Below, piece by piece: positions 42,862 through 44,895 of a stretch of DNA of 64,000 bases. A program made the position numbers and the translations under genes. Origin of the DNA: Synechococcus sp. J7-Johnson (GTDB lineage: Bacteria > Cyanobacteriota > Cyanobacteriia > PCC-6307 > Cyanobiaceae); assembly GCF_024345795.1 (NCBI RefSeq), contig NZ_JAGQBU010000009.1, forward strand, positions 1 to 64,000. Direction: 5' to 3'. Under the pieces are notes generated by a model. The model was not told where the DNA came from. It did no database searches and saw nothing but the letters and a program-made list of their open reading frames with translations. Numbering within the stretch: the stretch's first letter is position 1; each line of letters opens with the position of its first letter.

Positions 42862-43332
42862 TCAGGATTTGCGGGCGCGGCTCAGGGCTTCCCTTTGCAC
42901 GGCGCGCAGGTTGGCAGCGAGGTCTTCGCGCAGGCGCTGCTCGATCAGGCCTATCGGCATGCCCTGGCGACCCTGCACGGTGAGTTCGTAGAGCAACCGC
43001 GATCCACCGGGTTCGCCGCTGACCTGCCAAGCACCCTCGAAGCGGCGGAAGTCGCCCTCTCGCATGCTGAAACTGAGCAGGCCGTCGTCGTGATGCTCCT
43101 GCAGTTCCAGCTCGACGCGGGCGCTGAACCGCAGGCCGCAGAACTGCTGACAGCCCACCTGCTCCAGTCCAACGGTGTTCCCCCGGCGCCAGAGCAGCCG
43201 CGAGGTCGAGAGGTTGGGGATGAAGCGGCTGAGGTTCTCGTAATCGGTGAGAACGGCCCAGATCTGCGGAGGTGGGAGCTCGAGGCGCAACTGAACCGCC
43301 AGACGCCGGGCCCCCTGCGGCAGTCTCTCCAT
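42862..43332 (-). CDS. SRPBCC (START-like cyclase/dehydrase) family protein
   Basis: A protein of at least 156 residues with a polyketide-cyclase/START fold: LRLELPPPQIWAVLTDYENLSRFIPNLSTSRLL, QVGCQQFCGLRFSARVELEL, FSMREGDFRRFEGAWQV and RLLYELTVQGRQGMPIGLIEQRLREDL. Such folds bind hydrophobic ligands. The ATG at 43332 is the only ATG; the frame continues upstream to TTG codons at 43422 and 43515, so the N-terminus may be longer. Divergent from petH. Confidence 0.75.
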   Translation of the reverse strand: MERLPQGARRLAVQLRLELPPPQIWAVLTDYENLSRFIPNLSTSRLLWRRGNTVGLEQVGCQQFCGLRFSARVELELQEHHDDGLLSFSMREGDFRRFEGAWQVSGEPGGSRLLYELTVQGRQGMPIGLIEQRLREDLAANLRAVQREALSRARKS

Positions 43333-43526
43333 GTCCTGCTGGATCGTGTCCAGTGAACAGGCTTCCTGGCTGCTGAGCAGGCCCTGGATCGATGGAGTTG
43401 TCAGAACCGAAAGTTGCGCCAAGTGAGGGGGAACGCCGGATTCGTGGCAAGCCGGATCAATCCAGCCGCCACCAAACCTAACCGCAACACTCGGTTGCTG
43501 GTGCGGAAAGGCCAACGGTCTGGGAG

Positions 43527-43559
43527 GGATCGATCATTGGCGTTGCCTATGATCGATCC
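43527..43559. promoter_or_regulatory. Inverted-repeat operator overlapping the likely petH -10
   Basis: GGATCGATCAT (43527-43537) and ATGATCGATCC (43549-43559) are perfect 11-bp complements, with an 11-base spacer, so the half-sites are spaced 22 bases apart, two helical turns. TATGAT (43548-43553), a good -10, sits within the right arm, 29 bases before the petH ATG. No strong -35 is seen, which fits an activator-dependent or repressed promoter. Confidence 0.6.
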
Positions 43560-43576
43560 GATTTTCAGGAGTTTGA

Positions 43577-44740
<1,164 letters not shown>

Positions 44741-44805: not shown

Positions 44806-44895
44806 GCCGAAATCAGCACAGAGGGGGCCTGCCCATGCCCTTTGCTGGGTGTTCCCCGCTTTCGTGGGTAAACCAGTGTCATCAGCTGCAACTCC

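Follow-up and report, generated by a model that had tools for sequence, protein, structure and literature searches.

Core promoters of Synechococcus elongatus are described as carrying a -10 element but lacking a strong -35, and the same is said of Prochlorococcus MED4, in the sections of the source that were consulted (PMC3219970). For petH of Anabaena PCC 7120, the consulted part of another report gives two transcription starts, -188 and -63, of which one is constitutive and the other activated by NtcA (PMC4183373). In cyanobacteria of the Synechocystis type, two FNR isoforms arise by alternative translation start, according to the excerpted text of a third (PMC9319322). A literature search that had most subscription papers outside its reach returned no report of an inverted repeat at the petH promoter of the group considered here.

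We examined such a repeat in Synechococcus sp. J7-Johnson, within a stretch of 64,000 nucleotides (hereafter, the window). The element at 43527-43559 is an inverted repeat with 11 of 11 arm pairs and an 11-nt spacer, in which GGATCGATCAT (43527-43537) is the exact reverse complement of ATGATCGATCC (43549-43559). This confirms an earlier note on this DNA, which had described a perfect 11-bp inverted repeat with half-sites 22 bases apart; the arms measure 22 nt from start to start. The repeat is nevertheless longer than that note had stated, since arms extended to 15 nt (Table 1) are complementary at 14 of 15 positions around a 3-nt loop, GTT. The note had also placed a TATGAT in the right arm, which is true of ATGAT, whereas the first T (43548) belongs to the spacer. 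The repeat contains four GATC, the densest GATC cluster found in the window. The ATG of petH lies 23 nt past the end of the repeat, and its product has matches to CpcD and to the FNR NAD-binding domain. A divergent gene of the polyketide-cyclase/lipid-transport type is located on the 5' side of petH and zwf and opcA on the 3' side, with a KaiB-domain histidine kinase (SasA-like) farther upstream.

Table 1. Coordinates of the inverted repeat, the putative promoter elements, and petH in the window.
Feature	Position	Strand	Remark
Left arm of inverted repeat	43527..43541 (perfect 11 bp = 43527-43537)	.	Varies in genus, not conserved outside
Right arm of inverted repeat	43545..43559 (perfect 11 bp = 43549-43559)	.	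Inner part GCCTATGATC almost invariant in genus
TATGAT, putative petH -10 element	43548..43553	+	TATGATC exact in 73/81 petH loci
Conserved block GTTGCCTATGATC (family consensus GTTCYCTATGATC), putative core promoter	43542..43554	+	Profile, 78/81 loci; without conserved -35
Approximate transcription start (predicted)	43559..43561	+	Placed ~7 nt after -10 position
petH, ferredoxin-NADP+ reductase with CpcD linker domain, 385 aa	43583..44740	+	

Upstream regions of petH were compared in 81 loci, comprising the window's own locus, 79 of the 80 relatives retained from a contig scan as the best 80 of 389 petH relatives (L074 was dropped because its upstream sequence was too short), and one additional genus member (L089); the genus search covered 9 genomes. 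In two of the loci (L059 and L070), the petH start was shifted 42 nt upstream to an ATG. In 73 of these 81 loci (from the best 80 of 389), the 120 nt preceding petH contain exact TATGATC, 31-37 nt before the ATG, and this shared distance supports the earlier placement of the site at the petH promoter. Among the eight loci lacking TATGATC, L008 and L009 have TAAGATC, L013 and L016 have TATGATT, L049 and L073 have TATAGTC, and L071 and L081 have no recognizable element upstream of petH. A profile constructed from the 78 of 81 loci whose motif score was 8 of 10 or higher, and inflated by that choice of loci, has ~2 bits at each TATGATC position and reads GTTCYCTATGATC, with a T-rich stretch further on; the same 78 loci yield <0.4 bits at the -35 region and almost no signal from the left arm. 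Thus, petH orthologues share a -10-like hexamer (TAnnnT) whose distance to the gene is fixed. A -10 consensus alone would not call for the conservation seen at the G in position 4 and at the C that follows the hexamer, and a simple promoter scan for the sigma-70 two-hexamer consensus identified no site in 43300-43700.

As a control, the region upstream of zwf was examined in the same loci, where 51 of 81 share the 7-mer GTTAAAC. Hence, petH is not alone in having such an element, although its own is the stronger of the two. The GTTAAAC(C) upstream of zwf (~44860-44880 in the window, which has GGTAAACC) is perhaps the zwf core promoter, and a commoner zwf-upstream motif, CTCACCA, appears to be coding.

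The earlier note had stated that the sequence does not match the NtcA pattern, and scans for GTA-N8-TAC agree: the window has exact matches at two positions, 10755 and 50917, neither of them near the repeat, and none with one mismatch was detected in 43380-43590. HLR1-like sites were likewise absent from 43380-43590 at up to 4 mismatches, and no LysR gene was found beside petH among the neighbors examined. A transcription terminator was also considered and rejected, the only match being a weak one on the - strand at 43498-43484, apart from the repeat. Two further conserved stretches were observed upstream of petH. At 43505-43520, ~41-56 nt upstream of the predicted start, GGAAAGGCC(A/C)ACGGTC is almost invariant, with 5 minority letters over 16 columns in nine members of the genus, and may be an activator site. 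At 43471-43480, CAAACCTAAC is common among relatives (AAACCTA in 26 of 81), and TAGGTT in its complement may be a -10 for the divergent gene of the lipid-transport type.

Taken together, the conservation pattern makes it probable, in our judgment, that the repeat comprises an ordinary conserved petH core promoter and a degenerate dyad of the genus that is near-perfect in this strain. The functional element would be the right half, where TATGATC and the upstream GTT(C/G)(C/T)C would serve as the -10 region of a proximal promoter of petH. An RNA polymerase carrying a housekeeping sigma factor would read this region and start at the position given in Table 1, leaving a petH leader of ~22 nt. The left arm would be a stretch that is degenerate at the genus level and mirrors the -10 region by happenstance; in this strain, few substitutions, aided by the GATC excess of the genome, would have sufficed for a near-perfect mirror. 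The main mRNA would then begin after nearly all of the repeat, which would require no hairpin in RNA and no dimeric protein dedicated to it, and presumably no such regulator acts here. A start far upstream of petH is not indicated. Counting against a core promoter as the whole explanation are the dyad of the genus, which exceeds slid controls, covariation above that of most shuffles, the conserved G and C beyond the -10 consensus, and the outcome of the sigma-70 scan.

The GATC excess was quantified in 464 kb of the strain's own genome, comprising the window and 20 stretches of 20 kb. GATC occurs 4,685 times, vs. 1,453 expected from base composition (3.2x), and GATCGATC 51 times vs. 4.5 (~11x). 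This excess favors GATC-based palindromes. Perfect 11-bp arms with a spacer of 0-20 occur in the window in 13 listings (9 distinct centers), vs. a mean of 1.8 listings over 10 order-1 resamples of the window; in the 464 kb, 30 distinct centers of this class were detected vs. 5-18 in six order-5 simulations. Similarly, arms of 15 bp with one mismatch and a loop of 3-10 were identified 11 times in the 464 kb vs. 0-1 in order-5 simulations. The petH repeat beats random sequence, yet its hairpin class is common in this genome.

Copies of the repeat were sought across the 2.99-Mb genome. The 33-mer occurs in a single place even when up to 3 mismatches are allowed, which rules out a repeat family or mobile element. 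The 11-mer GGATCGATCAT is found in four places, two of them the arms and the other two inside open frames of 462 and 156 codons (from a mechanical list of frames). The earlier note had proposed a genome-wide search for the same palindrome, which returned no second exact copy of GATCAT-N11-ATGATC. With one mismatch, ten places match, and 7 of the 8 that could be placed are in open frames of >200 codons. With up to 2 mismatches, there are 130 places vs. 2 for a reversed control, a difference that probably reflects the excess of GATC over CTAG. When the spacer was varied (CGATCAT-N3..19-ATGATCG), one other place was identified, with a spacer of 7 and inside a 301-codon open frame. A regulon of similar dyads was set aside on the exact, one-mismatch, and variable-spacer matches.

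The petH upstream regions of nine species of the genus were aligned. In all nine, the dyad is recognizable at the same place: Watson-Crick pairs number 9-14 of 15, on average 10.8, compared to 2.0-4.8 of 15 with the right arm shifted by as much as 6; standard pairs comprise 77.8% of the dyad vs. 24-40% in slid controls. A genus-wide dyad counts against an accident of one strain. Over 10 columns each, 18 minority letters fall in the inner left arm vs. 1 in the inner right arm, which places the constraint on the side of the -10. A departure from the window in at least one arm is seen in 48 of 120 relative-by-pair cells, and most of these changes are uncompensated: 13 cells are Watson-Crick (27%) and 8 are G-U (17%), near the simple-chance expectation of 25% and 12.5%, respectively. 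The 72 unchanged cells include 70 Watson-Crick pairs. Together with a free fold of the alignment that leaves the hairpin out, the imbalance between the arms and this near-chance pairing weigh against selection of the symmetry. In the 72 petH loci from beyond the genus, the left arm has been lost (mean 4.8 of 15 Watson-Crick pairs), and this lack of conservation at petH of relatives is one of the two outcomes that the earlier note had named as refuting its proposal. At the window's geometry, which gives 11 of 11 pairs in the window itself, Cruz-7E5 has 9 and 1G10, WH 5701, and the G004 genome have 8 each; WH 5701 is of this genus and carries the conserved block. The 75 loci beyond the nearest three have a mean of 3.75 of 11 pairs vs. 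2.86 in shuffled upstream sequence, and 5.85 vs. 5.92 for the best over spacers of 0-23, with p < 0.05 for arm pairing in 2 of the 75. In L055, outside the genus, CGATCA occurs 20 nt upstream of TATGAT, at the window's spacing and with 7 of 11 pairs; this spacing is probably coincidence. In L013 (SynAce01), a different perfect palindrome, GCCTGATCAGGC, adjoins the petH -10 on its upstream side, and a close form is present in L016.

These patterns bear on the proposal of the earlier note that the palindrome is the operator of a dimeric regulator. In a form restricted to the genus, a dimeric repressor would bind both arms over the -10 and the start and block polymerase at petH. The shared position of the dyad in all nine members agrees with this, as do T43537 and A43549 at the arm junctions, kept in 8 of 9 members in the T-N11-A spacing that would suit a LysR-type protein, and weak covariation in the outer arm, where one pair is seen as T-A, A-T, and C-G. 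The covariation score of the outer five pairs (0.239 vs. 0.121 shuffled) is reached by 5 of 500 shuffles and that of the whole stem (0.119 vs. 0.080) by 3 of 500, levels that kinship alone can produce, and three outer pairs have changed on both sides, a number reached by 102 of 500 shuffles. Against such an operator are the unequal evolution of the arms, the near-chance pairing at changed positions, the loss of the dyad outside the genus, the lack of another exact copy in the genome, the confinement of nearly all placed one-mismatch sites to open frames, and the lack of an identified regulator gene. Only one of the two half-sites is thus conserved in orthologues, the left arm being variable or lost; a dedicated dimeric-regulator operator is not supported by these alignments, and we regard its genus-restricted form as unlikely. 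In another reading, GTT(C/G)(C/T)CTATGATC would be a petH-specific composite of this picocyanobacterial family, in which the core promoter is overlapped by a site for a TGATC-reading regulator; in the genus, this regulator would also use a second half-site upstream, which would complete the dyad. Two counts favor a composite: of 13 matches to the 12-base form TTNYCTATGATC in 9 genus genomes, 7 are at petH and the other 6 at different places, and the only copy of CCTATGATCG in the strain's own genome is the one at petH. CTATGATC occurs in eight places in that genome. We consider this arrangement unlikely. If true, it would provide electron flow to NADPH with its own transcriptional switch, independent of NtcA.

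Symmetry could also act in RNA, if a longer petH transcript had a leader hairpin that hid the start region and altered translation, a mechanism proposed for the two FNR isoforms of Synechocystis. The strand does fold into a 14-pair hairpin (as DNA, -14.3 kcal/mol, z -4.7), but the 141-nt region as RNA has a z of only -1.18, with 29 of 200 shuffles equally stable, and the hairpin is not chosen by the consensus fold of nine genus sequences. Orthologous leaders do not share a conserved hairpin, no Rfam family was matched at gathering score, and no distal promoter was found; moreover, the CpcD-FAD linker has no in-frame ATG, although a GTG is present (residue 85, 43835). These results render a leader hairpin the most improbable of the readings weighed here. 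Alternatively, the symmetry might be functionless in every species, a coincidence perfected by template switching between imperfect arms. Perfect and near-perfect hairpins are in several-fold excess across the genome, and arm pairing in the two closest relatives is 9 and 8 of 11. This account differs from a core promoter with a drifting mirror solely in the origin of the left arm, and the window and Cruz-7E5 differ at two positions, for neither of which the direction of change can be fixed; we consider it very improbable. A core promoter mirrored by drifting sequence is thus the reading that we prefer for this striking palindrome at a photosynthesis gene, half of it promoter and half of it drift, and it spares a hunt for a regulator. 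The petH block, conserved in 73 of 81 loci, marks a precise spot for measuring transcription of an NADPH-making enzyme.

Compared to known systems, the repeat resembles the T-N11-A dyad of LysR-type regulators in the 11 nt that separate the T and A at the ends of its arms. It differs in that this A is part of the conserved -10, the neighbors examined include no LysR gene, and the symmetry is not maintained. The gene and its CpcD-FNR protein are those of Synechocystis; unlike in Synechocystis, there is no linker ATG here, and a hairpin would precede the predicted start. As in Anabaena PCC 7120, a promoter is located near petH, but the predicted start is only ~22 nt from the ATG and no NtcA site was found nearby. 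The absence of a conserved -35 at petH fits cyanobacterial reports, in the sections consulted (PMC3219970). Like the core promoters of S. elongatus PCC 7942 and Prochlorococcus MED4, petH has a -10-like hexamer without a conserved -35; unlike those promoters, it has a start that is predicted, and its conservation extends to GTT(C/G)(C/T)C upstream and to a C downstream of the hexamer.
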